From positions 1 through 29,004 of IMG/VR virus record IMGVR_UViG_3300010885_003468: a stretch of 29,004 nucleotides of DNA; one strand, 5' to 3'. Shown here piece by piece: positions 14,601 through 28,121 of the stretch (position 1 is its first letter; every line of letters begins with the position of its first letter). A program made the translations under genes and the position numbers. Source of the stretch: a virus. The notes below the pieces were generated by a model. That model ran no database searches. It was not told the origin of the DNA and saw only the letters and a program-made list of their open reading frames with translations.

Positions 14601-15400
14601 TAGCGTCAGGTCATCAACCTGCTAGTAAAGCATTGGCTAATGTATTCTTACAAGTATCTTTAGACTCGTTTGTGCCAATCCCAATATCCCGCATGCCACC
14701 AGCAGATAACCCATTAGCGTTTGCTGTAGATTCAATTGCGCCAAGTACAGTACGCCCAGTCATTGAGTTTTTAATTAATAAAAATGGCTTAGGTCAAGAC
14801 ATTTATAACGCTGCATCTGGTCGTCGTATGGGTGATGCGTTCTTGGGTGGGGATAAAATTCCTGAGATGTATAAAAACGCGGCAGCGGCGTTGTGGGATG
14901 CAACAAACGGCGCAATTGATATTAGTCCTAACACTATGTATTTCTTATCTAATAGTTACGTAGACGGCCCAGCTAGAATATTTGAAGGAACGTTTGGTAT
15001 TACTGATACTATATCTGGTAGAAAAGAATTTAGTGCTAAGACTGACTTACCATTAATTGGTTCGTTCTTTGGTGCGGAAGCCAACGTAGACTCTAGAGAG
15101 TTTACATCGGTAGAAAAACAAATTACAGAAAAAGCTGGTAGATTAAAGTCCGCTGAGCTTAAACCAGAACGCTATATTAAATACATGGAAGCTAATCCGT
15201 TTGACGATTTGCTAGTAGAGTCTTACAACAAAGATATTGTTGAGTTAAACGTATTGCGCAAAGAAGCAAAAGAGATTCGTTTAGATAGTAATATGACGCC
15301 TAAAGAGCGGCAAGAGTTAATTAAAGTTCTTAACAAACAACAGGATCTTATTAAGCGAAATCTAATTGAGCAATACAAAGCTTACGGAGTAGAACCCTAG
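8621..15400 (+). CDS. Giant polyvalent virion protein with HExxH metallopeptidase motif (2259 aa)
   Basis: ATG at 8621 has AAGG 8 nt upstream. The N-terminus MPIYEYEGLQYDIATDDQ is a short domain seen at the start of phage polyvalent proteins. Residues about 120-250 are Gly/Ala-rich and hydrophobic. A zincin site lies at H1003-E-V-V-H1007 with a candidate third ligand E1059 (NLYEF), the gluzincin spacing pattern. Around residues 1660-1700 the segment NFAPMNFVRDALTNAW resembles the LPD38 type of large polyvalent domains. A hydrophobic helix at about 1918-1940 precedes DDDD. The C-terminus is charged and helical. As the last and largest gene of the virion arm it parallels T7 gp16, an ejected inner-core protein; no lytic transglycosylase motif is obvious. 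It ends at the CTAG shared with the opposite gene. Confidence 0.75.
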   Translation: MPIYEYEGLQYDIATDDQAAAKNKILAHLGKAPTPTAPAGFSAKETGLAFGQGIVGAGKSLTDVFGANNVASQALGKVQDVLGEQYSPERKAEMARREEIQKKAAESGSLTEEISAYLGSVADAPVQSLAQGLGSIVPYIGTGVIGGIAKLGGATVKAINTVIGAAQGAGAVKGSIYDGVRNELINTGMDPKEAEAKASKAQEYLGGNFLDIAGGAALGGVGARVGVENMLTPGAAAKLDSRLLTRMGKAALAEAPLEGVQAGQEQVAVNRALQQAGFDVDTFKGAAGAAARDAAIGALTGAAVGVRGPGATPVKPPTTKEETKEQADKKREFNNVETFTEEVKNPDPTIAAGLMPRFDEKGNPIAANAAPKPPVSQELADETIDFEANPEIATLQAEYDKRAQEIATGTNKGKIAAQTKKNAALKTKIDELKTQVVQSKPAAEETTQQETPKESIYEVPKKEADAYVAAIESQTVKPNASILKKHIKALGIEVPPGVGFNERAIQAIKGAQNAIQPTDAGTSGNGAEVLGRPNANAAPAGTTTAGLGRPGVDSNQSIESTPQNREGVQQSALDLTKYTNVPFTDLDTKEATTVDFSKAYVENGIIYVPSSGKFDYPLDNFSFNNPKAKALEKMLLDKFAKGIESQTSLAQSKVGPPVRNETFNTINPAESQAGLERNEAQAIADEAQRQADLQEIAGKNIPQVKTDETIREEYELSRQAISEEGIVVPEWSKLTADERDKYLGTITTNPSAQDFDNAAKTLATYREQKKGTGIKPGEQRVINSYEDGRPIYQRSMVIDLPAWSELSPEAKSAYSNNVINNTVTEQNIGFEAVAAQLEKEGKGIRGVSREGVKNLKLKGAEEVSLTKAQEELAKSLADRAQAVGKGKPLSNGLIMLLITGNVNGVLKQLGDGKAQGLNIGPQEGERGVVKEAAKRQSILTKLVSQFLSQSLNTIKYESNVVVADSNNSVIQRLEREGKLAEYDPKTDTFYFTEKGLDEATFLHEVVHAGTVKLINQYLTNPSSLDKNQREALDHLQTIFDFSKKRLGGKYKNAYENLYEFVGYALTDSKFQDALASMQVRPLAKYTIKAQDLWKQFTQVLADLYGLVTAKAKGMELRPEVFDAFAKSLAPMNKEGLYEATTEEEGVTTLEGEIATETDYAQRGAETELKEKKQRYKPGKAFLSVQPGYEGNLLLEVTEAFREILASPEVGIDVAPLAAKKAGAKTPKKAEKTPARIATFNDPGKEYMPSEVLAPKNVRWFKERFLTKPGWRKIAQEFQNDRYYIKVWEDTLELAGRVSHGVNEKFNNIYTQLTLATSAASNFYKAYVAQPVEALDTAIMEYSKAAKISTDETLAKLHVLYEALHEPERRLVKYLMNVPLKDAAADRRKEILDLVRKNNKITPAQAQALRKELEAIVGNKKNLDTASKKSTDMANDEYNVLGIDQAAARTSEEQYRNDPNKALLDNILDQVKTINDVTAELNKIANYWSQPVTNIVNFYGWKYYTPFKGKKYSRHGDADELLDFDSAKNGKELQELAYTFDGRESIAENPVLQVLADASKAAARAGRRNLTKSILNAITPNADGKKLLEGSVVQTIKFEDRYNVDNILKDVKRENTVFHYKEDGSIDVIEINDKKLRESIRRTYKDSNPMVDVANTITSKLGQLHTRYNYNFAPMNFVRDALTNAWTIGADMGPAASANFIKEITGSVAKGGLAKAMRVAYLLQKNNIAGIQELAKTDPGYKDMVDYIRHGGMVSYLQSLTTKSNFEQIQKRLGKNKIAKTKDQLDNVVDTWTDMFEITSRAAAFGIAKRSAMQANLAKGMSPKDAEDAANIKAAGYAKNLANFEQVGEYGKAMGAFYMFFRPSATGAVRAIEAVAPAFNSVSSAVTNLPPHIQNPKNEADAQALKTFKDSYAQKQQNARIMVAALMGLGALAYTMSAMMADDDDLGRNKLMTDNMDQWTRFWRLHIPGFETPIQIPWGFGLGSFAAAGAQLASVASGHQPASKALANVFLQVSLDSFVPIPISRMPPADNPLAFAVDSIAPSTVRPVIEFLINKNGLGQDIYNAASGRRMGDAFLGGDKIPEMYKNAAAALWDATNGAIDISPNTMYFLSNSYVDGPARIFEGTFGITDTISGRKEFSAKTDLPLIGSFFGAEANVDSREFTSVEKQITEKAGRLKSAELKPERYIKYMEANPFDDLLVESYNKDIVELNVLRKEAKEIRLDSNMTPKERQELIKVLNKQQDLIKRNLIEQYKAYGVEP

Positions 15401-15427
15401 GCGGTACGCCAGCAACGTACCCCTAGG
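15396..15427. terminator. Hairpin spanning the convergent stop codons (possible bidirectional terminator)
   Basis: Two CCTAGG palindromes (15396-15401 and 15422-15427) flank GGTACG (15403-15408) and CGTACC (15416-15421). Together they form a 12-bp stem with one bulged C (15402) and a 7-nt loop. The stop codons of the + strand 2259-aa gene and of the - strand 69-aa gene both lie in its outer CTAG. Neither strand has a U-run after the stem, so it is not a textbook intrinsic terminator; it may pause transcription or protect RNA ends. Confidence 0.55.
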
Positions 15428-15606
15428 TAACCTTCTTGGTGTGTAACGTATGACTTTACACGCATGCCAACGCGCTTTGCACCGCAATCTATAGAGTAAA
15501 TTAACTCCGCAGGACGCAGCGTGGGGATGAAAAAACTTTCCCCAATCGCCATGCCCTCAAACGGTAGCAGCCACTCAGGTTCAATTAATTGCGTGGGATT
15601 CAACAT
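15397..15606 (-). CDS. Small phage protein of unknown function (69 aa)
   Basis: ATG at 15606 lies inside the end of the primase-helicase gene (26-nt overlap), with GGAA upstream. The segment PFEGMAIGESFFIPTLRPAEL followed by YV..QEG.LGVRCWR resembles a small phage protein family I have seen as hypothetical, often near replication genes, without known function. It is compact, with no membrane segment, and has two Cys. It is the last gene of the - strand arm and its stop codon overlaps that of the convergent structural gene. Confidence 0.7.
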   Translation of the reverse strand: MLNPTQLIEPEWLLPFEGMAIGESFFIPTLRPAELIYSIDCGAKRVGMRVKSYVTHQEGYLGVRCWRTA

Positions 15607-18493
15607 CTAAAATTTCCAGCGTGTTTTTGAACAGATATACATTAGCCGCCTTAGTTGTAGTGGTTGGTTTCCAACCAGTCTCTAAATGTTTCTTAGCAGA
15701 CTTGTCTAGCATGTCACCTGACTCTAACATAGCACGTTCAAACTCCCGTGGGGTAATCTTCTTTTTATGTAAATACTCTTTAAATGCTTCTTTAGATACT
15801 CTTGTAGGTTCGTCTGTAGCTACCCTTGCTACCAACTTACCGCGAGGTTCATCAGTAACTCTACCTTCTTTAATACGTAGGGTATTCCCCATGTTCTCAT
15901 ACATAAAGTCTGCAAGAACGGCTGAATAATCGGTGCTGTTAACTTTAATTACGTTTAATTTAATGTTGTTAAGTTCAGCAATTACCTTGTGGTAAATACG
16001 CTCTAAGTCGTAGTCTACAATGCCAATCTCTATAGCAATCTCGCCAGCAGTAAAGACCGCCGCTACAAAGTTCTGATGGAAACGATACGCAGAGTCGCCC
16101 TTGGTATCAGTCAAATATCTATCAATCCAGTAGTCAATCCGTTTCTTAATATGAGCATCGCCAGCTTCTAAAGCCGCCACAATAAATTTCGGACCAGCGT
16201 GACCGTAGTTGTACTTGAACGCGTCGAAGATATGAACACCTAGCTTTGCGCCATCAGTCCCCTTTAAGTCGTTTGGTTGCTCAATTAAAAACTCAATTAC
16301 ACGGGCAACTTCTCCGTCGGGGCTTCCCTTATGAAGTTCAAACTTGTTGTAAACAGACTCGTTGGTAGTTAAAACTGCAATCAAAGAAGCCGACATTTCT
16401 GTAACCCGCTCAGCGTTAACCGATGCTTGCATGCGAATCTTAGCTTTGCCGTTAGAGACGTTATGAACTAGCTGGGATAGCGGCTTGGGGTCTTTGTTAC
16501 CAATCTCGTCAACACCAAACATCAGATTTTTTAAACCAAGCATGCGACCTGTCAAACCATTGTCTGTACTTTCAAATACGCTAAGCGCATCGGGGTCACC
16601 AAAGGCGCTAATGCCAGCATACATAGCCCCAGTCTTAGCACAACCAGACCTACCAAGAAGGGATATAACAACGCCTGGAGTCGACATGTAGGGCATCAAT
16701 GTGGTACCAAAACCAGCAAGGCAAGTCATGGCATGAAGTTCAAACCCTGGGCGGTTAAGGGCATTAGCAGATTCTTGCCAACGCTCATATGTACCTACTT
16801 CTCTAAAGTGTTTAACTACGCCTCTAATGTATGGAGATACTGGAGACTCTACCATCTCTTTTTTAAACGTAATTTCACGTTCACCAATAACAAAACTTCT
16901 ACCTGACCATTCGTCTGAATTACTCGTAGCTGTCCAACCTAACTGCATGCGCATCATTTGCGCTTTTCCTACGTTAATCATGTACTGACTCCATTTCACA
17001 AGGTATTCTTGTATGTTGTTAATCCATTTGGGGGTATAGATTACTTGGTGAAATGCCAAAGTTTTCTTTAATTCTTCTAGCGCATAGACTGACTTCATTG
17101 GTAATAAAAACTCTTTGAGTCCATCATTAGGAAGAATCAAGTGCATTGTCATACACTCTCCATCCAGCGGGCTAAACAAACGACGTACAGGAAATATAAC
17201 GTGCGCTAGTATTTCTACTGGGTCTTCGTAGTGCGTAACACCTTTCTTATCTACTTTTGGTGGGGGATTGTAATAAACACCGCCTACTTGTCCGCGACTA
17301 TATGGGCTTAAGAAGGCTGGGAATTTTGGAATTTCTTGGGTATTCGATGTCTCCCGAATTGGTTCCGCTTCATAGGTTTGTGTTCCGAGGAGGGCGTTAA
17401 TTTCTGCGGCGTTTGGCTCGAGAGGGGTATGTTCGGCAATTGGTTCTGGCTCTGTAATTTGTTTAAGAGCTTTTCCCAAAACGATTGGGGTATGGATTTT
17501 TCCACGGTGTTTACATCCTTCGCATCTATCTGGGTTTTGGCTGGCAAGATATTCACAAGTTTGTGGCTTGCCGCGTTTTATAAATTCAAGTTTCTTTTCT
17601 TCTACACCTTTGGCTGTGTAGTCAGGATGATCTTCAGATACGGTGTGTATCATCTTGTCGCCATCTTTGCAGAAGTAAGCAATATTCATACTGGAAAACC
17701 AGTCGTCGTAACTTAAAGTCTCTGCGTTTTCTAGCCAATATTTAACTTGGTTGCATCCGTCTCCAGCTAAGGAGCGCTCAGCAATCTTCATAAAGTCCCA
17801 CTCAAAGTTATCGAGCTTCTTCATAGCCATTGTGTCTTCGTCTAAACCCTTCTTCACATTGGCGAACGGGTCAGTTGGCTTAGTCTCTACTTCGCTGTCT
17901 AAAAACTCTTTAAACTCATCCCAGTTGTAGACATGGATTTCCTCACCAATAACAGACGTTGGTTCTGGTGGGTCATACTTATAGTTAAACGACTCAGGGC
18001 AACGCATAATACGCGCTGGGTCAGCCATTACCGATGAATCTGCCGCTATTTTAGATAGTGCGTAGGCTTTAAATTTATGCGCATAAGGTAAGTACTCTTC
18101 AATTGCAATATCCCTATCCATAATCCAATAGGCATGCAAGCCACCACCAGAATCAACGCAAACAGGATTAGGCAAACTTGTTTCACCAAGGAATTTCCAT
18201 AGGGCTGTTTGCGCCTCGCCTTTGTCACCATAAGCCTTACCCTCACCTACATCTAAATCAACAAAGAATGTGCGGTAAAATAAACAGTTGTCCGCCTTCC
18301 TACTAAATCCTTCAAAACTACCTAGTGCTACAAATACATTTAATTTTTGTCCGTTTAATTTTTCTACTAATTTAAATACATCATCAAGTGTTTCAGCAAA
18401 GCGGTTAGTTGTTTTCTTTGTTGCTTGTTCTATACCACTTACACAATAAACACCCTGCGATGGCAATGCTTTCTCATAGAATTGTTTTAACAT
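15581..18493 (-). CDS. Bifunctional primase-polymerase / helicase (970 aa)
   Basis: The N-terminal part has archaeo-eukaryotic primase (PrimPol) motifs: VDLDVG with D79 and D81, then SGGGLHAYW with H120, then DPARIMRCP near 158-166. A possible zinc cluster follows (C313, C324, C327). The C-terminal part is a P-loop ATPase: a Walker A-like GRSGCAKT (residues 614-621, K620) and a Walker B VDEIGN (D662, E663), resembling DUF927-type or SF3-like replicative helicases. It probably primes and unwinds DNA at the phage fork with the family A polymerase. The residue before the Walker A Lys is Ala rather than the usual Gly. The start lies a few nt after a terminator-like hairpin, with no obvious ribosome site. 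Confidence 0.85.
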   Translation of the reverse strand: MLKQFYEKALPSQGVYCVSGIEQATKKTTNRFAETLDDVFKLVEKLNGQKLNVFVALGSFEGFSRKADNCLFYRTFFVDLDVGEGKAYGDKGEAQTALWKFLGETSLPNPVCVDSGGGLHAYWIMDRDIAIEEYLPYAHKFKAYALSKIAADSSVMADPARIMRCPESFNYKYDPPEPTSVIGEEIHVYNWDEFKEFLDSEVETKPTDPFANVKKGLDEDTMAMKKLDNFEWDFMKIAERSLAGDGCNQVKYWLENAETLSYDDWFSSMNIAYFCKDGDKMIHTVSEDHPDYTAKGVEEKKLEFIKRGKPQTCEYLASQNPDRCEGCKHRGKIHTPIVLGKALKQITEPEPIAEHTPLEPNAAEINALLGTQTYEAEPIRETSNTQEIPKFPAFLSPYSRGQVGGVYYNPPPKVDKKGVTHYEDPVEILAHVIFPVRRLFSPLDGECMTMHLILPNDGLKEFLLPMKSVYALEELKKTLAFHQVIYTPKWINNIQEYLVKWSQYMINVGKAQMMRMQLGWTATSNSDEWSGRSFVIGEREITFKKEMVESPVSPYIRGVVKHFREVGTYERWQESANALNRPGFELHAMTCLAGFGTTLMPYMSTPGVVISLLGRSGCAKTGAMYAGISAFGDPDALSVFESTDNGLTGRMLGLKNLMFGVDEIGNKDPKPLSQLVHNVSNGKAKIRMQASVNAERVTEMSASLIAVLTTNESVYNKFELHKGSPDGEVARVIEFLIEQPNDLKGTDGAKLGVHIFDAFKYNYGHAGPKFIVAALEAGDAHIKKRIDYWIDRYLTDTKGDSAYRFHQNFVAAVFTAGEIAIEIGIVDYDLERIYHKVIAELNNIKLNVIKVNSTDYSAVLADFMYENMGNTLRIKEGRVTDEPRGKLVARVATDEPTRVSKEAFKEYLHKKKITPREFERAMLESGDMLDKSAKKHLETGWKPTTTTKAANVYLFKNTLEILDVESHAIN

Positions 18494-18503
18494 GTGCGCA
18501 GAG

Positions 18504-18530
18504 TTTAAAAAACCGAGATATCCTCGGTTG
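18504..18530 (-). terminator. Intrinsic terminator-like hairpin just before the primase start
   Basis: Read on the - strand, AACCGAG (18529-18523) pairs with CTCGGTT (18517-18511) around a 5-nt loop GATAT, and a run of six T (18512-18507) closes it. This is a good Rho-independent terminator shape. It follows the HTH gene and ends about 13 nt before the primase ATG, so either it leaks or it works as an attenuator. Confidence 0.75.
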
Positions 18531-18560
18531 AGTTATTGGGTAGGGATTGCTCCCCGTTGT

Positions 18561-18872
18561 TTAAATCTTTTCGCCGATCATATCCTCTAAATATGCCTTA
18601 GCGTGGGCAATATCTTTTGCTGGAAGATATCCTTTAGCCGTGTCGCTTTCCACTAAGTCGGTAAATACTTCGACGAGTTGTTGATTTTTAAAACGAATTG
18701 GTTTGCCACGGAACCAGCTATAAAGCGTCATCCGAGTTACTTTAAGAGCTACAGCTACATACTTGGAGGGTAAATTCGCTTGTATACATGCTTTAGCTAG
18801 TGCCACCCCTGGGTAATTAGGGTTTAACTTACTAACCGTTTCGATTAGTTCTTGGCTATATGTCCGTGGCAT
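18561..18872 (-). CDS. Helix-turn-helix DNA-binding protein (103 aa)
   Basis: Residues about 36-60 (SKYVAVALKVTRMTLYSWFRG) form a helix-turn-helix of the kind that recognises DNA in small regulators and terminase-small-subunit-like proteins; the next residues are basic (KPIRFKN). The rest is helical. It lies between the Cys4 putative ssDNA-binding gene (9-nt gap) and the terminator before primase. It may regulate early transcription or assist replication initiation. AAGGATAAGGA precedes the ATG. I do not recognise a specific family. Confidence 0.65.
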   Translation of the reverse strand: MPRTYSQELIETVSKLNPNYPGVALAKACIQANLPSKYVAVALKVTRMTLYSWFRGKPIRFKNQQLVEVFTDLVESDTAKGYLPAKDIAHAKAYLEDMIGEKI

Positions 18873-18881
18873 TCCTTATCC

Positions 18882-19730
18882 TTACTTCTTAGTAGACCAT
18901 TTTTTAACAACATCTGAAACATCAGATGATTTCTCGCTAGTATCAGCTTTAGATTCACGCTTTACTGGCTCTGCTACCGCCTCTGGCTGGGCTACTTCTA
19001 CATCGCCTGAGCTATCTGACTGAAATACGTTGAGTTTGATAGCCGCTTCTGCCGCTGGGCTTTTGGCTTGGCGAGCAATGATTTCTAAATCTTCATCAGG
19101 TACAGCACCTACAGGAGCAAACAAAACCTTTGGTGTAGGAGATTTTGTATCGAAAGCCATCTTAGTTACCACGCGGCCCGCTGACACATTGTGTGACGCT
19201 AAGTGTTGGATATATGGACGGAAAGGCCAACGACCATTATCTTCTTTACCAAAAGCTGAAGTAGCTGGGAGGACTAACTGCATTACATCACCTGCTGGGT
19301 CGTTCGGTAAAACGACTGCGGTACGCCATGACAGTTTGCATTTTGCGCCCATACCATTGTCACCAGAACCCTTTGCGCTATTTGGGCAAGAGTTACAAGC
19401 GGCGGCTACTGGAGTTTTTACATCTGCGTCTGGAGCTTCGGAGTTAGATGACCAACAAGCTGGAGACACCTTCTCACCTTCTTTGTATCCCTTGTCATAA
19501 AACATACGGGACGCTTTGTGTGCCATCTTAACAATAATGACATTCATGTAGCGGTCTTCAATCGAACCAATTTCTTTGCCGCCTACATACTTACGGAACA
19601 CGCTACCTTTAATAGATAGACGCTTATTACCTTGACGATTACCACCAGCTACGGCTAATGTGTCTTCATCTAAACCACCTACTGTTGCTAATGCGCCTAA
19701 AGCGCTTAAGTTCACTAATTCTGTACTCAT
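18882..19730 (-). CDS. Putative ssDNA-binding protein with four-Cys cluster (282 aa)
   Basis: The protein has a beta-rich core (GSVFRKYVGG, then RYMNVIIVKMAHKASRMFYDK) and a possible zinc site from C92, C112, C115 and C131. The C-terminal 45 residues are low-complexity, rich in Ser, Asp, Glu and Lys. I have seen this architecture in phage replication clusters with no firm name. The candidate role as single-stranded DNA-binding protein rests on the position between helicase and primase genes and the flexible tail. The tail ends in KKWSTKK, not the acidic tip typical of bacterial SSB or T7 gp2.5, which is a reason for caution. AAGGAG precedes the ATG at good spacing. Confidence 0.5.
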   Translation of the reverse strand: MSTELVNLSALGALATVGGLDEDTLAVAGGNRQGNKRLSIKGSVFRKYVGGKEIGSIEDRYMNVIIVKMAHKASRMFYDKGYKEGEKVSPACWSSNSEAPDADVKTPVAAACNSCPNSAKGSGDNGMGAKCKLSWRTAVVLPNDPAGDVMQLVLPATSAFGKEDNGRWPFRPYIQHLASHNVSAGRVVTKMAFDTKSPTPKVLFAPVGAVPDEDLEIIARQAKSPAAEAAIKLNVFQSDSSGDVEVAQPEAVAEPVKRESKADTSEKSSDVSDVVKKWSTKK

Positions 19731-19760
19731 TTTTAAAGCTCCTTATTTAACTAAATTTAA

Positions 19761-20177
19761 CTATTCTGAAGTTGGTTTACGGACAGAGACTGTAAACTCC
19801 CTCATTACATTCACACCAGGCGGTAAACCATCGTTCATATGCTCGGCAATGAATTCTTTAAAATTGCCCTGATGAATCCGTGCCTCATACAATTCCACGG
19901 CATCGTTCTCACGGACAAACTCATCAAACGCACTTCTATCTGACAAGGTATATCTTTCATTCAATTTCTTAATTACAGTTCCTTGATTCGTTTTAATACT
20001 TGTTGCGTTTGACTCGTTACATACAGCAAGCATCTGCTGGGAAAGGATGGACATTTCGCCTTCAATTTCTTTGAGTTTGCTTTTCCACTCGCCTTCCAAT
20101 TTATCACGCTCATTTCTTATTGTCAAGTATATTTTTACTAATTCGTCTAGATTTGTTTCAACTATTTCACTCATCAT
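19761..20177 (-). CDS. Gp157-like coiled-coil phage protein (138 aa)
   Basis: The N-terminal half (residues about 10-55) is a charged heptad-like coiled coil. The C-terminal half carries SIKTNQGTVIKKLNERYT, then FDEFVRENDAVELYEARIHQG, then LPPGVNVMREFTVSVRK. This pattern is familiar from small phage proteins beside recombination or replication genes, related to or resembling Siphovirus Gp157 proteins, whose biochemical role is not settled. It overlaps the helicase gene end by 11 nt, so it is probably translated with it. Two adjacent ATGs (20177 and 20174) could both be starts. Confidence 0.65.
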   Translation of the reverse strand: MMSEIVETNLDELVKIYLTIRNERDKLEGEWKSKLKEIEGEMSILSQQMLAVCNESNATSIKTNQGTVIKKLNERYTLSDRSAFDEFVRENDAVELYEARIHQGNFKEFIAEHMNDGLPPGVNVMREFTVSVRKPTSE

Positions 20178-21735
20178 TTATTCCTAACTCTTCTTTGTAC
20201 AGATCAACCAACTTCTCGTGGTTAGCAACTTTCCCTTGTAGCATTTGGTACATCTTGCGTTCAACTTCTGAACCTTGTAAATGCACAACGGTCATCTTAT
20301 TAACCTGACCATAACGATCAATACGAGCTATACATTGCAAGTATGTTTCCACACTCATGACTGGAGACCAAAAAACTACTGTATTGGCGGCAGTTAGAGT
20401 CACACCGTGCGATGCGGCTTGTGGTTGGATTATTAAAACTCGTGGAAATTCTGAATTTTGGAAACGATTAATTAAATCGCCTCTTTGTTTTGCTCCTACA
20501 TCTCCGTTAATAATTTCATTAGTAATACCTTCTCCTTTTAAATGTTTAGAAACTAGCTCGATAGTGTGACGGAATGGAACGAAGATTATAACTTTGTGTA
20601 TCGTCTCATCAATCACTTCCATTAGGGCATTTAGCCGTGGCGATACATCAAACTCCACAACTTCACGGGTGTCGGTATAGACCGCCCCTCCCGAAATCTG
20701 TAACAACTTTGTTAACTTTGCCGCCGCATTAACAGCACTAATCTTTTCACCCGCCGCCTCAATAAGCATCTGATCTTTAATAGCTCTGTAGTATCTAGTG
20801 ACTTGTGGTGTAAGCGGTACTTCGCGGGTCTGATATGTTACATCAGGTAAGTCTAAACATTGGGCTTTTTCAAACCTGATTGCTGGTTGTAATGCGTTGA
20901 ACACGTCGTTCCTTGATGTTGGTTTTGGTACATATTTAAAGCGTGTAAGCTGGTGCATTACTTTGTCACGCCACGCTGTAAAATATTTAGGTACGTTATC
21001 AGGACATACTAACTTGGCTAAACCAAACGCATCAAGCGGAGACTGAGAAGCTGGTGTGCCAGTCAGCATCCAAAGTTTAGTAGAAGGTTTCAATATTTTT
21101 GCCAGCGTCTTAAATCTTTTAGTCGTAGCTGTTTTATACGCATTAGCTTCGTCAACTACAATTAGGTCAAACCCTAACTTACTTATGTCTTCGGCAACTA
21201 TATTAACACCGTCATAATTAATAATTACAAACTCATAAATTCCATTAATTATTTTTTTGCGTTTTTCTGCGTCGCCATAAGCCACGGCTACGCTACGGTG
21301 CATAGATGTTTTAAAAATATCAGCTTGCCATGCAGAATACATAATTGATAGAGGGCAAATAATTAACACGCGTTTAATTAAACCTTGCGTCATTAAATAA
21401 TCGGCAGCCCAAATGACAGATGAAGTTTTGCCTGTGCCAGCCTCATTAAAACAAAAAGCGCGTTTGTGTAGGGATAAAAACGCAGCCGTGGTTTCTTGGT
21501 GTTTGAACGGTGTATACATTCCAGGCCACTTGTAATCGCGTTGTATCGGTGAAGGAACTTTCTCGTCACAAATACGGACTAGGTGTTGCATCTCTTCAAT
21601 GCCCCAGTAGACTGCTACTTCAGCAATTTGACCGTTGTCGTTTAGAACTTCGCTTTTCTCTAAGTAGTCAGTTACCAATTCTATTTTGTCTGACGGCATC
21701 TTAAATTTAACGGCTACATTTTCTACTATTTCCAC
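20167..21735 (-). CDS. SNF2/SF2-type DNA helicase (522 aa)
   Basis: The SF2 motifs are in order: Q-like region FKHQETTAAFL, Walker A EAGTGKT (98-104), motif II VVDEAN (195-198, a DEAN variant of DEAD/DEAH), motif III WMLTGTPAS (223-230), and motif VI QCIARIDRYGQ (Q467, R471, R474). The residues around motif VI (RIDRYGQ followed by VVHLQGSEVE) are characteristic of SNF2-like enzymes, which translocate on double-stranded DNA and remodel protein-DNA complexes. In phages they support replication or recombination. The start is GTG with AAAGGA upstream and lies after a hairpin at 21762-21780. Confidence 0.85.
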   Translation of the reverse strand: MEIVENVAVKFKMPSDKIELVTDYLEKSEVLNDNGQIAEVAVYWGIEEMQHLVRICDEKVPSPIQRDYKWPGMYTPFKHQETTAAFLSLHKRAFCFNEAGTGKTSSVIWAADYLMTQGLIKRVLIICPLSIMYSAWQADIFKTSMHRSVAVAYGDAEKRKKIINGIYEFVIINYDGVNIVAEDISKLGFDLIVVDEANAYKTATTKRFKTLAKILKPSTKLWMLTGTPASQSPLDAFGLAKLVCPDNVPKYFTAWRDKVMHQLTRFKYVPKPTSRNDVFNALQPAIRFEKAQCLDLPDVTYQTREVPLTPQVTRYYRAIKDQMLIEAAGEKISAVNAAAKLTKLLQISGGAVYTDTREVVEFDVSPRLNALMEVIDETIHKVIIFVPFRHTIELVSKHLKGEGITNEIINGDVGAKQRGDLINRFQNSEFPRVLIIQPQAASHGVTLTAANTVVFWSPVMSVETYLQCIARIDRYGQVNKMTVVHLQGSEVERKMYQMLQGKVANHEKLVDLYKEELGINDE

Positions 21736-21761
21736 AACTGTCCTTTAACTGAATATTAACG

Positions 21762-21780
21762 TAACCCCTTACGGGGGTTA
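21762..21780 (-). promoter_or_regulatory. 7-bp stem-loop before the helicase start
   Basis: TAACCCC (21762-21768) and GGGGTTA (21774-21780) form a perfect 7-bp stem with a 5-nt loop. On the - strand it is followed by CGTTAATATT, not a U-run, so it is not a clear terminator. It lies about 27 nt before the helicase GTG, and could act on mRNA stability, translation or DNA-protein binding. Confidence 0.5.
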
Positions 21781-21805
21781 GTCGGTCAAGCCTGTCGCGC
21801 CAAGG

Positions 21806-21836
21806 AGAAGTCTCGAGTCAAACAAAGAAATCTCGA
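21806..21836. repeat. Pair of 11-bp repeats spaced 20 bp
   Basis: AGAAGTCTCGA (21806-21816) and AGAAATCTCGA (21826-21836) differ at one base and start exactly 20 bp apart, close to two turns of the helix. That spacing suits a dimeric or paired protein-binding site. Confidence 0.5.
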
Positions 21837-21924
21837 ACCTCACAAACGCCGCCTGACTGACACGGTTATTGAGTTACTATGTACTCGCCGTTCACTCATG
21901 CCTTACAACGGAACACCCCACCAA

Positions 21925-22236
21925 TTATTTCTTACGCTCTTTCTTGCTTGTTTCTGATACTAAATTACCTTTTGAATCACGCTTAAAGCTACGATTTTTA
22001 GCTGCGCTTTCAATGCGTAATCCATCTTTATTTAATCCGCCTTTATCCAACGCTTTGACATGGGCTACGTCTTTGCCTTCTCGTTTGTCGGCTTTTCCGT
22101 TTCCATTAGCATCGACTCCTGTCTTATCCACCGACCGCCTCGCTCTTTGACGCTCCATACGACGTTCGTGTTCTCCACGGGCTTTTTCTTGCTGGTATTC
22201 TTTTGCATAAGGTCTCGGTTTAGTAACATAAGGCAT
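21925..22236 (-). CDS. Basic HNH-like protein (103 aa)
   Basis: The protein is strongly basic. It carries GKDVAHVKALDKGG (D57, H59) followed by LRIESAAKNRSFKR (N81, R82, S83). This resembles the DVDH...N..NRS core of small phage HNH-type nucleases, which nick or cut DNA with a single metal ion. A complete first Cys/His pair for a zinc-bound HNH is not seen, so it may be a reduced or non-catalytic relative. It begins 2 nt after the end of the Fe-S nuclease gene and is last in that coupled group. Confidence 0.45.
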   Translation of the reverse strand: MPYVTKPRPYAKEYQQEKARGEHERRMERQRARRSVDKTGVDANGNGKADKREGKDVAHVKALDKGGLNKDGLRIESAAKNRSFKRDSKGNLVSETSKKERKK

Positions 22237-22238
22237 GA

Positions 22239-22895
22239 TTATCTTTCTTTGTGAAACTCACAAGTTTTTACTGGACACCAACCACATAAAGGAGTAGGGT
22301 TCGGATTCCATATATCATTTTCGTAGGATATCTTTAATCTTTCAAGGTCTGTAGAGAAATAACTCCACAACTTTGGAATCTGATCTTTAGAATATTCTTC
22401 AGCCATAAAGCTCTCGTGCATCACAAACAACAACCCAGCTTTAATTACTTTAACTTCAGGAAAGTGGGCAAACGTCATAAGAGCCATCAGCTTTAACTGT
22501 TTTGGGTCAGGGTATCTATTACTGCCAGTCTTGTAATCAACAATAAACGCATGGTCACCATCTACAATAAGCAAGTCTACAATGCCACGAACCCAACGAT
22601 TTTTATCAGCAAACTCACACGGTACTTTGTCACGAGTCAATGCCATCTGATACTCAGGGTACTTAGTCCCAGGAATTTCAATCAAAGAATCAAGCACAGG
22701 CTTAAATCTAAGGTAGTTTTTTTCTAAGGGTTTACCCTCGGCTACATAATCTTCACAAACTTTATGGACAACTGTGCCATATAGCATTTGTTCTGTGGCT
22801 TTCTTTTCAAAGCGCTTTAATACCTTCAATTCCTGATATTGCCTAGGACAGTTAACGTATTCTTTAAGAGAGGAAAACGACCATGTAAAGTTCAT
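22239..22895 (-). CDS. PD-(D/E)XK exonuclease with Fe-S cluster, Cas4/AddB-like (218 aa)
   Basis: The RecB-family motifs are complete: H44 (GTVVHK), D107 (GIVDLL), D120-Y-K122 (IVDYKTG) and Q133 (PKQLKLMA). Four cysteines C16, C204, C207 and C212 are arranged as one near the N-terminus and three near the C-terminus, the layout of the 4Fe-4S clamp in AddB and Cas4 nucleases. Such proteins digest DNA ends, in recombination, replication-end processing or host DNA breakdown. There is no cas1 or cas2 gene nearby, so a CRISPR role is not indicated. Its ATG overlaps the stop of a 28-aa ORF (ATGA), placing it in a coupled group with the sigma-like gene and the polymerase. Confidence 0.85.
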   Translation of the reverse strand: MNFTWSFSSLKEYVNCPRQYQELKVLKRFEKKATEQMLYGTVVHKVCEDYVAEGKPLEKNYLRFKPVLDSLIEIPGTKYPEYQMALTRDKVPCEFADKNRWVRGIVDLLIVDGDHAFIVDYKTGSNRYPDPKQLKLMALMTFAHFPEVKVIKAGLLFVMHESFMAEEYSKDQIPKLWSYFSTDLERLKISYENDIWNPNPTPLCGWCPVKTCEFHKER

Positions 22896-22978
22896 GTTGA
22901 CATATTACATTGTTTTAAATAATTTTCAAGCCATTCGTAATATTTTTTCATCTCTTCTTTCAACAAATTTTCAATCAT
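22892..22978 (-). CDS. 28-aa micro-ORF coupled on both sides
   Basis: From ATG at 22978 to TGA at 22894-22892 the frame encodes 28 residues, starting MIENLLKEEMKKYYEWLEN and ending in CNMST. Its ATG overlaps the stop of the sigma-like gene (ATGA, 22978-22975) and its stop overlaps the ATG of the nuclease (ATGA, 22895-22892). Without it the two neighbours would be separated by 79 untranslated bases. The peptide is predicted to be one amphipathic helix rich in Lys, Glu and aromatics. It may be a functional microprotein or mainly a translational bridge. Confidence 0.6.
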   Translation of the reverse strand: MIENLLKEEMKKYYEWLENYLKQCNMST

Positions 22979-23205
22979 ACTAAGTCCTCTCTATTAATAC
23001 CTTTTTCAAACAACGCTTTGCGTATCTTTTTAAATGCGCTTGCTTCTATATTTCTAACTGTCTGACGGCTAACACCCAGCTCAGCGGCAATAGCTTCTTG
23101 TGTCATCTGAGGATTGTTTAAATTAACCATACCCGCAAATGGAATGGGTTCTAATTCTGTTTCAAACATTGCTCTTATTCTGTCTTCTGTTGTAAAGGTT
23201 GTCAT
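22975..23205 (-). CDS. Stand-alone sigma-70 region 4-like regulator (76 aa)
   Basis: Residues about 34-65 read MTQEAIAAELGVSRQTVRNI followed by EASAFKKIRKAL. This closely follows the helix-turn-helix of sigma-70 region 4 (LGVSRERVRQIEAKALRKLR type), which contacts -35 promoter DNA and the RNA polymerase beta flap. No region 2 or 3 is present, so it cannot be a full sigma factor. It may redirect host polymerase, as an activator or anti-sigma-like protein. I chose ATG at 23205 because it overlaps the polymerase stop (ATGA); an in-frame ATG at 23217 would add four residues. Confidence 0.75.
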   Translation of the reverse strand: MTTFTTEDRIRAMFETELEPIPFAGMVNLNNPQMTQEAIAAELGVSRQTVRNIEASAFKKIRKALFEKGINREDLV

Positions 23206-25088
23206 GTTTTTTTCCATTCTTCCATATCACCATAATTATATCCATGATGTGCTTCACAGGCGATAGGTAAATCTTTAGCCCAATCTGGTGGTGTTGACAT
23301 AACCTCGACAATCCAAGCACAAGCTTCATCTACGTCTTCTTCGGGAACTACGCACACCGCCGCATCATGCACAGTTAACACGGGTCGATAACGCTTAGCT
23401 AATTTAAGCATCTGTTCACCGACGATAATTCTTGCTAATGCTTGAACTACGTTTTCCACAATAGAACCGCCCCATAGAGACACGGGGCCTTTGCGTGACT
23501 TATATTGGTATCCGCTATTAACATCATCAGTATCAAGTTTTAACTCTGGGTAGCGTATATATAGCCCATTAGGTAGTAAGAACCCCTCTTTAGTTACTTT
23601 TACACAGTCATGTTCGCCATAGCTAAATGGCTGGTACTCGGGTAGCCAATCAGATAGATGCTTCAATACCGAGTCGCCTTCTCTCCAAAGCTTAACAACC
23701 ATGTCATTAGTTGACCTGTACAATTTAACTATCTCGTCACACTTTTCTTTAGTAAGGTCTGCGCCAGGTGGACTAGTCTTTAGTGTGTGCTGTAACTTTA
23801 AAGCGCCAGTACCATATCCGAGACCGAGAATGCAAGTTTTACCCACGAACCTTTCAATAGGGTTTTCTTTGGTAATAGTTCTTTCATATATTTTCGACGC
23901 AAAAATGGAGTAAACATCATCTCCCAACTTGAACTCTTTAACCAAGTCTGCCTGACCCGCAAGGTAGGCAAGGACTCTTGCCTCAATCTGAGACGAGTCG
24001 CAATTGATAATCTTATATCCCTCTGGGGCGACCACCGCTTGCTTAAGAGCCTTTTTCTTCTTGTCACGGGACGGCAGATTTTGGAAGTTAACCTTGTCCG
24101 ACCCCGCCCAACGACCCGTGTGTGCCCCGTAGTATTTAAGTGGGATGGGAAGCAGTCCTCTATTACGAGATCCAACGTCAATGAATCTTTCAATCCTACT
24201 CTCCTCAATAGTTGATTTAGTCCCCAAACGCACAGCAGCGAGTTGTTGAATGAATGGGTCGTCGTGTTCCGTCAACGCTATGAATCCTGTGTCGTTTTTT
24301 GCTAGCGCATAGGTTAGCTTGCCAGTAGTCTTGCTTTCCTTCATTGGCACTTCAACATTAAATTCTTCTAACACGGCAGCGAATTGTTTATTACTAGCTA
24401 ACTTCTTACGCACCGCCTCTTCGCTGTCGCACTCTAACTTTTCTTTTAAAGAGCCAAGTAACTTAAATTTCTCGTCTTTAAGTTCTTCTAGCCGTTCAGA
24501 TAAAAGGGCATCGTCAACGCTTAGGATTGGGTTGATAAACATTCGCAAAGTCAAATCAATCAAATCTAATTCATTTTGCGGAAACGCTCTCGACAATACT
24601 TGGAAGAGTTTAAAAGTTAGCTCCACGTCGTTTTTGCAGTATTCGCCGTACAAGGCAAGCTCGCTATTTGAGAAACCAGTTATATTTTTGCCTTTTGCCT
24701 CGATGACCTCTGTACCCTTTTTGCCTAAGTTGTAGCGCTCAGATAGGTATGCTAAAGAGCCACCCACATCAACACCGTTAGTAGCCCGACCCATACATAG
24801 CGTATCTAAATAAAACTTAGGTTTGATACCAAACTTCCAAGCAAGGATTGCGCCATCAAACATCGTATTGTGGCAAAGAAGAGCCGAGTCTTTCCACGGA
24901 AGTGTGGAAAGGTATTTTTGAGTCTCGAGGTGTGAGCCAGAAAACCATTGGGTGACGCCCTCGTCAATCTTTACACCAACACCAATAACCTCGAACTTCT
25001 TACTGCGGATATATTCTTCGGTTGTAAACTTGGTTAGTGAGAAGTCTTGAGCATAGTACGTCTCAAAGTCTAGGGTGATTAGTTGCAC
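23202..25088 (-). CDS. Family A DNA polymerase with 3'-5' exonuclease domain (628 aa)
   Basis: The exonuclease motifs are LDFET (D7, E9), NTMFD (D78) and YCKND (Y150, D154). The polymerase motif A is NCDSSQIEARV with D364. Motif B is GKTCILGLGYG with K417 and Y425. Motif C is TVHDAAV with D575. The Glu that usually follows the motif C Asp in E. coli Pol I (VHDE) is Ala here, which I have seen in other phage polymerases. There is no 5'-3' exonuclease domain. It is the replicative polymerase of the phage. The start is GTG with AAGGA at good spacing. A terminator-like hairpin lies about 30 nt upstream, and its stop is coupled to the sigma-like gene. Confidence 0.95.
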   Translation of the reverse strand: MQLITLDFETYYAQDFSLTKFTTEEYIRSKKFEVIGVGVKIDEGVTQWFSGSHLETQKYLSTLPWKDSALLCHNTMFDGAILAWKFGIKPKFYLDTLCMGRATNGVDVGGSLAYLSERYNLGKKGTEVIEAKGKNITGFSNSELALYGEYCKNDVELTFKLFQVLSRAFPQNELDLIDLTLRMFINPILSVDDALLSERLEELKDEKFKLLGSLKEKLECDSEEAVRKKLASNKQFAAVLEEFNVEVPMKESKTTGKLTYALAKNDTGFIALTEHDDPFIQQLAAVRLGTKSTIEESRIERFIDVGSRNRGLLPIPLKYYGAHTGRWAGSDKVNFQNLPSRDKKKKALKQAVVAPEGYKIINCDSSQIEARVLAYLAGQADLVKEFKLGDDVYSIFASKIYERTITKENPIERFVGKTCILGLGYGTGALKLQHTLKTSPPGADLTKEKCDEIVKLYRSTNDMVVKLWREGDSVLKHLSDWLPEYQPFSYGEHDCVKVTKEGFLLPNGLYIRYPELKLDTDDVNSGYQYKSRKGPVSLWGGSIVENVVQALARIIVGEQMLKLAKRYRPVLTVHDAAVCVVPEEDVDEACAWIVEVMSTPPDWAKDLPIACEAHHGYNYGDMEEWKKT

Positions 25089-25120
25089 TTAAATCCTTAA
25101 ATAATAAATTAAATAGATAC

Positions 25121-25153
25121 AAAAATAGGGAATAGAGCCTAAACCCTATCCCC
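25121..25153 (-). terminator. Terminator-like hairpin before the polymerase gene
   Basis: Read on the - strand, GGGGATAG (25153-25146) pairs with CTATTCCC (25135-25128) with one G-U pair and a 10-nt loop, followed by TATTTTT. It lies between the Cys-rich peptide gene and the polymerase start, with about 30 nt left before the GTG, which is too little for a normal promoter. Confidence 0.6.
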
Positions 25154-25164
25154 TAGGAAATTTC

Positions 25165-25359
25165 TTAGTTACAAATAAATGGTTTGCTCGGCCCGTAAAT
25201 GGATGAGTCCCAGCAACAAACTTTTCCATTACGATCAGTCTCGCAGATCATTACACCTCGTTGTGCGTTTGCACGATGATAGACTGCTAACCCCGCAATT
25301 AAAATCAGCGCAGCGACACAAAACTTAACAAATATGTTAACTACTTTTTGTGCTCTCAT
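25165..25359 (-). CDS. Exported or membrane-anchored Cys-rich peptide (64 aa)
   Basis: Basic N-terminus (RAQK), then a hydrophobic segment at residues 9-27, then RANAQ with an A-x-A site that fits signal peptidase cleavage after residue 32. The remaining 32 residues carry C39, C48, C49 and C63, suited to two disulphides in the periplasm. No catalytic motif is seen. It might act on the cell envelope, for instance in superinfection exclusion or lysis control, but this is speculation. It could also stay anchored by the hydrophobic helix. Its ATG overlaps the stop of the DUF3310 gene (ATGA). Confidence 0.6.
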   Translation of the reverse strand: MRAQKVVNIFVKFCVAALILIAGLAVYHRANAQRGVMICETDRNGKVCCWDSSIYGPSKPFICN

Positions 25360-25616
25360 GATTTCTCCATGTTAGCAATTTCACGCTTCAAGTACCACTC
25401 GGCTTTGCGCAAGTCTTCTATAAGACGACCCTTGTACTCTGCTCTAGAAACATACTTGACAACATTACCTAGGTTATACCCTAGCTTCTTTGCCTCAATG
25501 AAATCAATTGTTTCAATCCCTCCAGCTTTGTAATGCGTTGGGCTATTGACGCTATCCGTTATTACTTCCTTACGTGGTCTTCCACGCTTACGTGGAACGT
25601 TAATTAACTTCTTCAT
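25356..25616 (-). CDS. DUF3310 protein with N-terminal AT-hook (86 aa)
   Basis: The C-terminal 55 residues read HYKAGGIETIDFIEAKKLG, then YNLGNVVKYVSRA, then DLRKAEWYLKREI, the DUF3310 signature. This family includes T7 gp1.7, reported as a nucleotide kinase. The N-terminus carries PRKRGRPRKE (residues 8-17), an AT-hook core (GRP flanked by basic residues) that binds the minor groove of AT-rich DNA. I chose ATG at 25616, which has GGAG 8 nt upstream. An in-frame ATG at 25658 would extend into the previous gene. Overlaps the genes on both sides. Confidence 0.8.
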   Translation of the reverse strand: MKKLINVPRKRGRPRKEVITDSVNSPTHYKAGGIETIDFIEAKKLGYNLGNVVKYVSRAEYKGRLIEDLRKAEWYLKREIANMEKS

Positions 25617-25818
25617 CTTTACTTCTCCTTTTGGTTGAACTACGTTTAACTGCAACAATGCCTGATTCTTCTTTAGGTTTACGAGCCTTCAACATCGAAT
25701 CTGCTAATGAATAAGATAACTCCGCAATGGCTTGGTCGTTGTAGGCACCCATTGCCTCAGTAAGCAAGCCATTCAAAGCAAACATAGCAAAACAATCTCT
25801 TAGGTCTTGCTCATTCAT
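25600..25818 (-). CDS. Small phage protein of unknown function (72 aa)
   Basis: The N-terminal 45 residues (LRDCFAMFALNGLLTEAMG, then YSLADSMLKAR) form two helices of a type often seen in small uncharacterised phage proteins. The C-terminus is basic and likely disordered (KRSSTKRRSK). It overlaps the neighbours on both sides. It has no recognisable catalytic motif. Confidence 0.65.
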   Translation of the reverse strand: MNEQDLRDCFAMFALNGLLTEAMGAYNDQAIAELSYSLADSMLKARKPKEESGIVAVKRSSTKRRSKDEEVN

Positions 25819-26023
25819 TAGTCATCTCACGATTCTTCTTAAACAAAAAGTCCTCTCGATACTCGGTAGGCGGAACAAAACCGTATCGTTTAAAAGTCTT
25901 CATAACATCAGAACCTTTTATGTAAACAAATTTGGAGTTTAAGCCTATAGCTAGAGGCAACTTCTTTTCTTTCTTAGGCTCTTGCTCTACCAATTTAACT
26001 TTGCGTAGTATGTTTAGATTCAT
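25811..26023 (-). CDS. Hypothetical protein (70 aa)
   Basis: I do not recognise a family. The protein is basic, with a central LNSKFVYIKGSDVMKTFKRYGFVPP segment broken here as two parts: LNSKFVYIKG and MKTFKRYGFVPP. It has a strong ribosome site AAAGGAG inside the end of the preceding ORF, which supports the ATG at 26023. It overlaps the next gene by 8 nt. Confidence 0.6.
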   Translation of the reverse strand: MNLNILRKVKLVEQEPKKEKKLPLAIGLNSKFVYIKGSDVMKTFKRYGFVPPTEYREDFLFKKNREMTNE

Positions 26024-26162
26024 CGTGATTCTCCTTTAAAAATAATTCCATTAACTCAACCGCCCGATTGAAACCAGTTGTATAAGCTTCTTCAAGTCCA
26101 CCTTCTGATGTTACAAACTTCTCGCCTTCAATCCAGTCGTTAAACTCTTTTCTTGCTCTCAT
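25995..26162 (-). CDS. Small hypothetical protein (55 aa)
   Basis: ATG at 26162 overlaps the stop of the preceding 57-aa ORF (ATGA), and the frame runs 55 codons to TAA at 25997-25995, overlapping the start of the 70-aa gene by 29 nt. The product begins MRARKEFNDWIEGEKF, followed by a helix with GGLEEAYTTGFNRAVELME. The composition is like that of a real small protein (acidic, helical). It contains the ribosome site of its downstream neighbour. No family is recognised. Confidence 0.6.
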   Translation of the reverse strand: MRARKEFNDWIEGEKFVTSEGGLEEAYTTGFNRAVELMELFLKENHDESKHTTQS

Positions 26163-26332
26163 GCTTTCTCCTTGTCAGTTATCTCAACAACATAAACACC
26201 ATCATCAACTTCCTCTATTTTGGCTTTCTTTTTGTTACCAAAGATTGCCTCAAAAGTTTTATCAAATTGCTCTTGGTTATATATTGGTCTTGGCTTGTCG
26301 CCCTTACCGCCGTCTCGATAGTTATGGCTCAT
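26159..26332 (-). CDS. Small hypothetical protein (57 aa)
   Basis: The frame has ATG at 26332 overlapping the stop of the 78-aa gene (ATGA), and its own stop overlaps the next ATG (ATGA, 26162-26159). The product starts MSHNYRDGGKGDKPRPI, a polar segment, followed by FDKTFEAIFGNKKK and a short beta-like KIEEVDDGVYVVEIT. It is charged and soluble. The double coupling supports it as a real gene; no family is recognised. Confidence 0.65.
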   Translation of the reverse strand: MSHNYRDGGKGDKPRPIYNQEQFDKTFEAIFGNKKKAKIEEVDDGVYVVEITDKEKA

Positions 26333-26565
26333 TTCTCTTGTGCCTTTAACTGTTTATTAAACTCATCAACTTCTTTCCACCAAGCGTCTGTGTACTTTGC
26401 TGGTTTTGGTTCTTGCATCTGCATAGCCTTGTTAAACTTATCTTTCCAGTACTCTATTTCTTCTGCATGTTTTCGCAACATGGTTACAGCTTGGCATACT
26501 ACCAATACAGGCATACCATCTTTGTTATATTCATCTAATTTATCGGCTAGTTCTTTTGCGTTCAT
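26329..26565 (-). CDS. Small coiled-coil hypothetical protein (78 aa)
   Basis: The start MNAKELADKLDEY followed by QAVTMLRKHAEEIEYWKDK resembles a widespread small phage protein with an N-terminal helix pair and coiled coil; no function is known. Its ATG overlaps the stop of the VRR-NUC gene (ATGA), and its stop overlaps the 57-aa ORF. Confidence 0.65.
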   Translation of the reverse strand: MNAKELADKLDEYNKDGMPVLVVCQAVTMLRKHAEEIEYWKDKFNKAMQMQEPKPAKYTDAWWKEVDEFNKQLKAQEK

Positions 26566-26849
26566 GAGAAAAATAACTCCATATAAGAATTAACATTAGA
26601 TTCATTAATAACAACACCATGACCGCCGTTATCTTCTATGCGTTCTAGGTTGTCCATCTGCAATGCCGTAGGTTTGTTAGTGCCCGACTTAATCTCTAAG
26701 CCGTAAAACTTTCCTTTGTGACACACGACAATGTCGGGCACACCGCTACTTCCGTATCCACCTGTGGATGGCATGATGTAATAGATTTCTCTTTGTTTAA
26801 GATACTTCTTAACTATTTCTTTAACTTTTCCTTCGGGGGTCATTGCCAT
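26562..26849 (-). CDS. VRR-NUC domain endonuclease (95 aa)
   Basis: The VRR-NUC motifs are complete in a minimal protein: E6 near the start, GVPDIVV with D39, LEIKSG with E52 and K54, and KPTALQ with Q64. The family belongs to the PD-(D/E)XK fold; stand-alone phage members have been described as structure-selective nucleases that can act on Holliday junction-like DNA. Expected role: resolving branched replication or recombination DNA before packaging. The ATG overlaps the preceding TAA (TAATG); a second ATG two codons later could also be used. Confidence 0.85.
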   Translation of the reverse strand: MAMTPEGKVKEIVKKYLKQREIYYIMPSTGGYGSSGVPDIVVCHKGKFYGLEIKSGTNKPTALQMDNLERIEDNGGHGVVINESNVNSYMELFFS

Positions 26850-27187
26850 TAACTCTCTCCTTTCAGTTTCATTAGTGCATCATAAGTAAGAATTACTACA
26901 AACCACATATCACTTACTCTCCAACCTATTTCTATAAAGTCATCGTTCCGTAGTGGGGTAGTCATTAGATTTAAATGTGTTACCTCATAATCATGCAGTA
27001 TAGGGTTACCCCTTGCCAACACCATAGCCATTTTAGATTTGATATTGTCAGGCAATGTATCTTCGTCAAATACCCGATTAAATCCATCAGCAACGAATAT
27101 GGTGTAGGAGTTTCCTTCCTTACGCAATGGGACACGATAGAGCGCATAGTTATATTGGTGAACTACTGGGCTTAAATTCCCGAGCAT
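26849..27187 (-). CDS. Hypothetical protein (112 aa)
   Basis: I do not recognise a family. The sequence looks like a small alpha/beta protein: YNYALYRVPLRKEGNSYTIF, then strands and loops to EIGWRVSDMWFVVILTYDA. I chose ATG at 27187. A TTG at 27202 would add five residues. Neither has a convincing ribosome site, and both lie inside the end of the upstream gene. Its TAA is shared with the VRR-NUC start (TAATG). Confidence 0.55.
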   Translation of the reverse strand: MLGNLSPVVHQYNYALYRVPLRKEGNSYTIFVADGFNRVFDEDTLPDNIKSKMAMVLARGNPILHDYEVTHLNLMTTPLRNDDFIEIGWRVSDMWFVVILTYDALMKLKGES

Positions 27188-28110: not shown

Positions 28111-28121
28111 TGTCCTTCTCC

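Follow-up and report, generated by a model that had tools for sequence, protein, structure and literature searches.

How the primase-helicase gene in this virus is expressed is not obvious from its position, as it begins directly after a hairpin with a T-run that looks like a transcriptional stop. To answer this we examined the gene, its leader and the same region in related phages. The window, meaning the whole stretch of DNA analysed, is a viral record 29,004 bases long, and the leader described here lies on its minus strand (Table 1).

Table 1. Genes and putative RNA features around the start of the primase-helicase gene, in window coordinates.
Feature	Position	Strand	Basis
HTH-like small gene 5′ of the leader, 103 aa	18561..18872	-	ORF list; own 6-nt Shine-Dalgarno; weak HTH_3 match
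P0, small hairpin GGGGA-GCAA-TCCCT, 5 nt after the HTH-like stop	18542..18555	-	Folding; comparison with relatives
P1, terminator-like stem-loop, 7 pairs, loop of 5	18511..18529	-	Sequence and folding; conserved in relatives with varying paired stems
Six-T run of the terminator-like site	18507..18512	-	Sequence; T-run kept in relatives
P2 5′ strand, ACTCTGCG	18497..18504	-	Leader alignment and pairing tests
P2 loop: start codon (18493-18491) and codons 2-12; AUG predicted to pair with GCAU of codons 9-10	18460..18496	-	Folding; codon constraint
P2 3′ strand, CGCAGGGT, from the last part of codon 12 through codon 14	18452..18459	-	Permutations and synonymous reshuffles
Primase-helicase gene, 970 aa	15581..18493	-	PHROG 25314 (E 3.5e-70); PHROG 8841 DNA primase/helicase (E 2.5e-27); Pfam DUF927

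The preliminary description of this locus reported a textbook terminator with a 7-bp stem and six T, ending 13 nt before the ATG, and the coordinates bear out all three measurements. On the minus strand the 5′ arm of P1 is AACCGAG (18529-18523), the loop is GATAT (18522-18518) and the 3′ arm is CTCGGTT (18517-18511), followed after the T-run by AAACTCTGCGCAC and the ATG at 18493. Four of the seven pairs are G-C, the stem folds at −9.2 kcal/mol, and dinucleotide shuffling gave an equally good fold in only 1 of 200 trials (z −3.52). As in an intrinsic terminator, the stem is G+C-rich with a short loop and the T-run follows it directly. The hairpin and T-run are real, but "textbook" is too strong a word: two of the six T lie inside the stem, leaving four after the full 7 bp, a Carafa-type score is borderline at 0.1, and a terminator consensus scan that listed 21 terminator-like sites in the window, where 15.7 are expected by chance, did not include P1. 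Taken alone, the window copy is only a moderate terminator candidate.

The case for P1 comes from its relatives. A search with the primase gave the best 80 of 132 related viral loci (39-88% identical), and a second search, started from a distant member, yielded 80 further places, mostly on the same contigs. Loci cut before the start codon (L062 and L076; L233, L235, L236 and L247; truncated ones from the later C-terminal searches), loci with identical sequence from −45 to +60, and L036, which has a short upstream region, were left out, and removal of rows at least 97% identical reduced 66 leaders to 53. Since the first search patterns included an N-terminal peptide, the searches were repeated with C-terminal queries, which gave ten further leaders; all ten have the hairpin, with the T-run judged by eye. 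A hairpin precedes the primase ATG in 52 of the 53 nonredundant relatives, or 62 of 63 with the later ten, so the conservation in related phages that the preliminary description had proposed as a check is there, and loss of the stem in close relatives was not seen. The sole exception, L069, has an HTH-like gene that reaches almost to the primase ATG, and it also lacks the 5′ strand of P2.

Among the 52 loci there are 26 distinct P1 stems, so that the sequence varies while the pairing stays. All seven inner positions show at least two kinds of pair, and one of them occurs as C-G, G-C and A-T. As the stem search accepts paired stems only, the evidence is the variety of the stems and their position, and not the pairing itself. 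The loops also vary (GCAA, GATAT, CATAGT, GAAA and others), and the distance from stem to ATG is 10-27 nt. Within 8 nt after the trimmed stem there are 4-7 T in 52/52 hairpins, with only four in some relatives; among the ten later leaders the run is weak in some (ATTTC in L392, TTCTT in L413), and the same Carafa-type score is not above zero in 13 of the 52. Among the other ORF starts on the same strand of these 53 loci, 16/311 passed the hairpin test, mostly without a real T-run, and all 16 lie approximately 3.2-3.6 kb upstream of the primase and apparently belong to one other gene, at a distance that fits the helicase gene. Retention of P1 in nearly all relatives means it is not there by chance; P1 is a real and conserved hairpin.

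Other hairpins were noted in the window. Directly 5′ of the helicase start is a CCCC-CGTAA-GGGG hairpin (21762-21780), and hairpins with a CGTAA loop account for 13 of the 16 control passes approximately 3.2-3.6 kb upstream of the primase, mostly without a real T-run. Between the helicase start and a 103-aa ORF that ends at 21925, ~160-190 nt (21762-21925) are noncoding and have no Rfam match. At 25126-25155 a strong terminator-like hairpin (13 pairs, −18.3 kcal/mol, TTTTT) stands ~40 nt before the GTG of polA; it is kept in some relatives only, as 6/69 polA starts pass the hairpin test (over 90 nt) and a few more do by eye.

Only 13 nt separate the hairpin from the ATG in the window, so a promoter cannot fit there, and with 10-27 nt between stem and ATG in the family the earlier remark that there is no space for one holds. 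The absence of a clear ribosome site proved to be a trait of the whole family: the longest match to TAAGGAGGT at the window primase start is 3 nt, and a Shine-Dalgarno match ≥4 nt long occurs at 1/63 primase starts compared with 230/323 other ATG starts in the same loci, pointing to family-wide initiation without one. It had been proposed that expression must rely on readthrough, antitermination or a promoter within the HTH-like gene. With no room for a promoter and no Shine-Dalgarno, expression would come from transcription that passes the hairpin, and this part of the proposal stands. The promoter inside the HTH-like gene is not supported, as no sigma-70-like site matching at least 9/12 was listed on the minus strand from the hairpin to 20098, and the last part of that gene is little constrained beyond its protein (codons 60-94 have a mean excess codon identity of 0.03-0.04).

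What the preliminary description missed is a second pairing, P2, which encloses the AUG and is new here. Between the T-run and the ATG the relatives share a conserved ACTCTG with a few variable bases. In the window ACTCTGCG is complementary to CGCAGGGT within the coding region, in another group ACTCTGAC is complementary to GTCAGGGT, and in L392, where the loop sequence differs, pairing of CTCTGCGA with TCGCAGGG is kept (by eye). Each locus's own strands pair more strongly than swapped partners, with 0/5000 permutations as good, and the fraction of paired cells is.808 as opposed to.760 (sd.011) in permutations (0/2000 as high), although the sequences are related and these figures overstate independence. 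Sliding the 3′ strand by 1-6 bases lowers the paired fraction to.19-.53, compared with.81 in register. Three of the 63 loci (L069, L078 and L211) have no motif and were excluded when pairs were counted. The counts retain some 5′ strands in which an arm of P1 was mistaken for the motif (ACCCCGCC and similar), as well as L392, whose register is off by one codon, and these cases work against the pairing. L012, L013, L055, L071, L075 and L211 have weak or broken P2 pairs.

Since the 3′ strand is coding sequence, P2 was also compared with synonymous reshuffles. The duplex is −11.2 kcal/mol as opposed to −7.7 after reshuffling codons 11-16, with a mean z of −1.45 compared with +0.31 in control genes. 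In the window 1/100 reshuffles is as strong, and 25/63 primase genes fall at or below 5% of reshuffles compared with 8/323 controls. The predicted probability that the AUG is unpaired is.20 for the primase genes' own sequences,.45 for reshuffles and.47 for control genes. Taken as a whole, the start region folds no more stably than its reshuffles do (mean z +0.47, controls +0.48), suggesting that any selection acts on the P2 pairing and the AUG and not on overall stability. By these comparisons P2 pairing exceeds chance.

A third helix, between the linker before P1 and codons 15-18, would close P1 and P2 together; it occurs in the minimum-energy fold of the window, and we rejected it because many relatives are non-complementary there by eye. 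The motif TTTTTAGACTCTGCG was found in 86 stretches of viral contigs, 24 of which have a hairpin and an ATG, and all 24 are primase starts. Extension of the layout beyond the primase was likewise dropped, as the other 62 stretches lack the hairpin and ATG; two of these contigs adjoin a tRNA-Arg gene. In one such phage contig a TTTTTAGACTCTGC repeat occurs twice just before the tRNA-Arg gene (L105:7395-7448; also in L135), and its likeness to the primase leader motif is probably a coincidence.

The earlier reading of the start had also left out conservation at the nucleotide level. Among the 49 of 53 coding sequences that were long enough, excess codon identity peaks at codons 3-17 of the primase, which reach 0.257, the top value among 156 windows, compared with 0.069 elsewhere. 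Codons 3, 4 and 7 lie inside the P2 loop and are AAA in 48/48, CAA in 48/48 and GAG in 45/48, and over codons 3-8 (18470-18487 in the window) AAA, CAA, GAG and AAA are near-invariant beyond what the protein needs. P2 pairing does not account for the constancy of codons 3, 4 and 7, and it is possible that codons 3-8 are a contact site for a protein or the ribosome. We considered whether the T-run pairs with GAGAAA (codons 7-8) and so causes the constraint there, and set the idea aside, as such pairing was seen in L079 by eye only.

On the upstream side, the small gene, whose product the preliminary description had suggested might control this step, has weak HTH character, with an HTH_3 profile match in 6/13 family members (best E 0.0014). 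Its codons 54-56, TTC CGT GGC (Phe-Arg-Gly), are unusually constant, with CGT in 48/53, and are perhaps a nucleotide signal within the gene. The median distance from its stop codon to P1 is 31 nt, and it is at least 30 nt in 34/54 loci. According to data reported for lambda tR2, a terminator near a stop codon is suppressed and reaches its full efficiency of ~0.9 beyond ~30 bp (PMC4824070). Set against these data, the spacing fits a working terminator in approximately two-thirds of the loci and partial suppression in the rest.

A small hairpin such as P0 often occupies the gap before P1, with a second hairpin of −3 kcal/mol or better in 39/62 relatives and in 22/63 control windows. In some relatives (L061:3796-3954, L063, L074, L219, L008, L075, L086, L019 and L020) an element of 50-90 nt, GGGGGAAAGC...GAGTACCCCACC, stands in place of P0, with what appears by eye to be a loop-E-like internal loop, GAAA/AGUA. 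The pattern has at least 120 matches in viral contigs (including L249-L328). Among the matches listed, 80 places were examined; 73 of them have over 300 nt of sequence on their upstream side, and 49 of these 73 sit within 12 nt after the end of a same-strand ORF. A covariance model of the element found 10 copies in 73 sources (the window and the primase loci), all at the P0 position and none in the window, and matched 6/17 whole records, five of them once. It has no Rfam match at the gathering threshold, and the papers listed by a literature search for its sequence letters looked unrelated. It is possibly an undescribed intergenic RNA element.

The reading that we favour, with a probability of about 0.55, is that P1 is a fixed attenuator between the HTH-like and primase-helicase genes that is passed by readthrough, after which the message would meet a P2-folded start without a Shine-Dalgarno. 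Transcription of the replication operon from an upstream promoter would end in part at the P1 T-run, and the readthrough transcripts would carry the primase message. In that message ACTCTGCG would pair with codons 12-14, leaving the AUG enclosed and itself tending to pair, and such a start would initiate poorly or only conditionally. Both stages would reduce primase-helicase relative to the products of the preceding genes, so that little is made or it is made late, and a factor or ribosome traffic may open P2. Going by the conserved sequence features, the leader probably acts as a brake on the amount of primase-helicase made. A more elaborate form, which we offer tentatively, is a compact two-stage RNA valve in which the terminator would gate primase-helicase synthesis at transcription, the P2-held start would gate it next at initiation, and the conserved AUG loop would be read by a phage or host factor. 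Its layout joins a terminator within ~20 nt to a start codon that lacks a Shine-Dalgarno, using a helix made partly from the gene's own codons.

Several other explanations were weighed against this attenuator. Lambda early terminators stand before a replication gene, as P1 does, and P1 could likewise be a regulated switch: a strong stop early in infection that an antiterminator, small RNA or protein factor later allows to be passed, thereby timing the primase. Retention of the P1 site and its spacing in 62/63 loci agrees with this, but no alternative pairing for the P1 arms appeared in 14 folded leaders (minimum-energy folds only), no shared nut-like element was noticed by P1, no antiterminator gene was identified, and regulation is not required by any of the data, so that we regard a switch as unlikely, though it is the alternative we would turn to first. 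Next to it, and also unlikely, comes a translational operator, where a phage protein (e.g., the primase or another replication protein) would bind P1 together with P2 and its conserved AUG loop and repress translation, making the T-run secondary. The constraint on codons 3-8 beyond the protein and the predicted sequestration of the AUG would suit an operator, and T4 gp43 and gp32 offer a precedent by binding RNA structure 5′ of their own starts (PMC3014915). However, the stem and loop sequences of P1 vary freely, unlike the loop recognised by gp43 (PMC3014915), L392 keeps P1 and P2 despite a different loop sequence, and the T-run is kept in 52/52.

Intergenic stem-loops are reported to guide processing in some bacterial operons (PMC10311766), and P1 could similarly be an RNase cut site or a 5′-protection structure that frees the primase message from the transcript of the operon and leaves a protected end; this is improbable, as the conserved T-run and the lack of a Shine-Dalgarno would go unexplained. 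The conserved dyads and their position at the primase gene would also fit hairpins that form when the DNA is single-stranded and serve the adjoining primase as an origin or a site for priming, but in most loci P2 places a T opposite a G, which is a pair in RNA and a mismatch in DNA, the T-run is on one strand only, and the stem sequences are not conserved. We consider a DNA-level signal highly improbable. With the window copy alone, which is moderate, one could suspect a chance hairpin without function; conservation in 62/63 with varying paired stems, compared with 16/311 controls, makes this scarcely credible.

The layout of the leader resembles that of E. coli rpsU-T1-dnaG and of the T4 gene 43 and gene 32 operators, and it is neither. 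The dnaG gene of E. coli is poorly translated, and we know of no start-codon pairing like P2 in it. This operon is the nearest layout, as rpsU is separated within it from the primase gene dnaG by a conserved rho-independent terminator (PMC7863352); we do not claim homology, and the phage hairpin differs in ending 10-27 nt before the ATG. The autogenous translational operators of T4 gene 43 and gene 32 share with the phage leader an RNA structure 5′ of a phage replication gene and sequence that overlaps the ribosome site (PMC3014915). They are unlike it in that the part of that account dealing with them describes no T-run terminator and that gp43 recognises a loop (PMC3014915). A gp43-type hairpin with a conserved loop was not found among the P1 hairpins, as their loops vary, and membership of that type is not claimed. 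In lambda, tR1 is Rho-dependent (PMC3526286) and is overcome by N at nut sites, and tR2 is rho-independent; these terminators also interrupt an early phage operon (PMC3526286, PMC4824070), whereas the phage leader has no identified nut site or N.

Two distant homologues of the primase were compared. In Rhizobium phage RHph_TM27A (MN988461; 22% identical) the primase homologue is separated from its upstream neighbour by a strong hairpin of 13 pairs (−22.8 kcal/mol), but this stops ~28 nt short of the annotated ATG, only TTAATG comes after it, and no P2 5′ strand was seen. The hairpin is absent in Pseudomonas phage Rollin (23% identical), which has a GGAGG site. No primase relatives were found in cellular genome contigs. 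An Rfam search of window positions 15000-29004 with E up to 1 gave one weak match, outside the leader, the leaders of 13 relatives gave no match at gathering, and literature searches for a terminator before a phage primase listed no match.

Directly 5′ of its primase, this family of uncultured phages keeps a hairpin that resembles a terminator, together with a folded start that lacks a Shine-Dalgarno. If both stages work, phages and cells would have primase level in common as a control point, and Shine-Dalgarno-free initiation at a structured start could be well studied in this leader.
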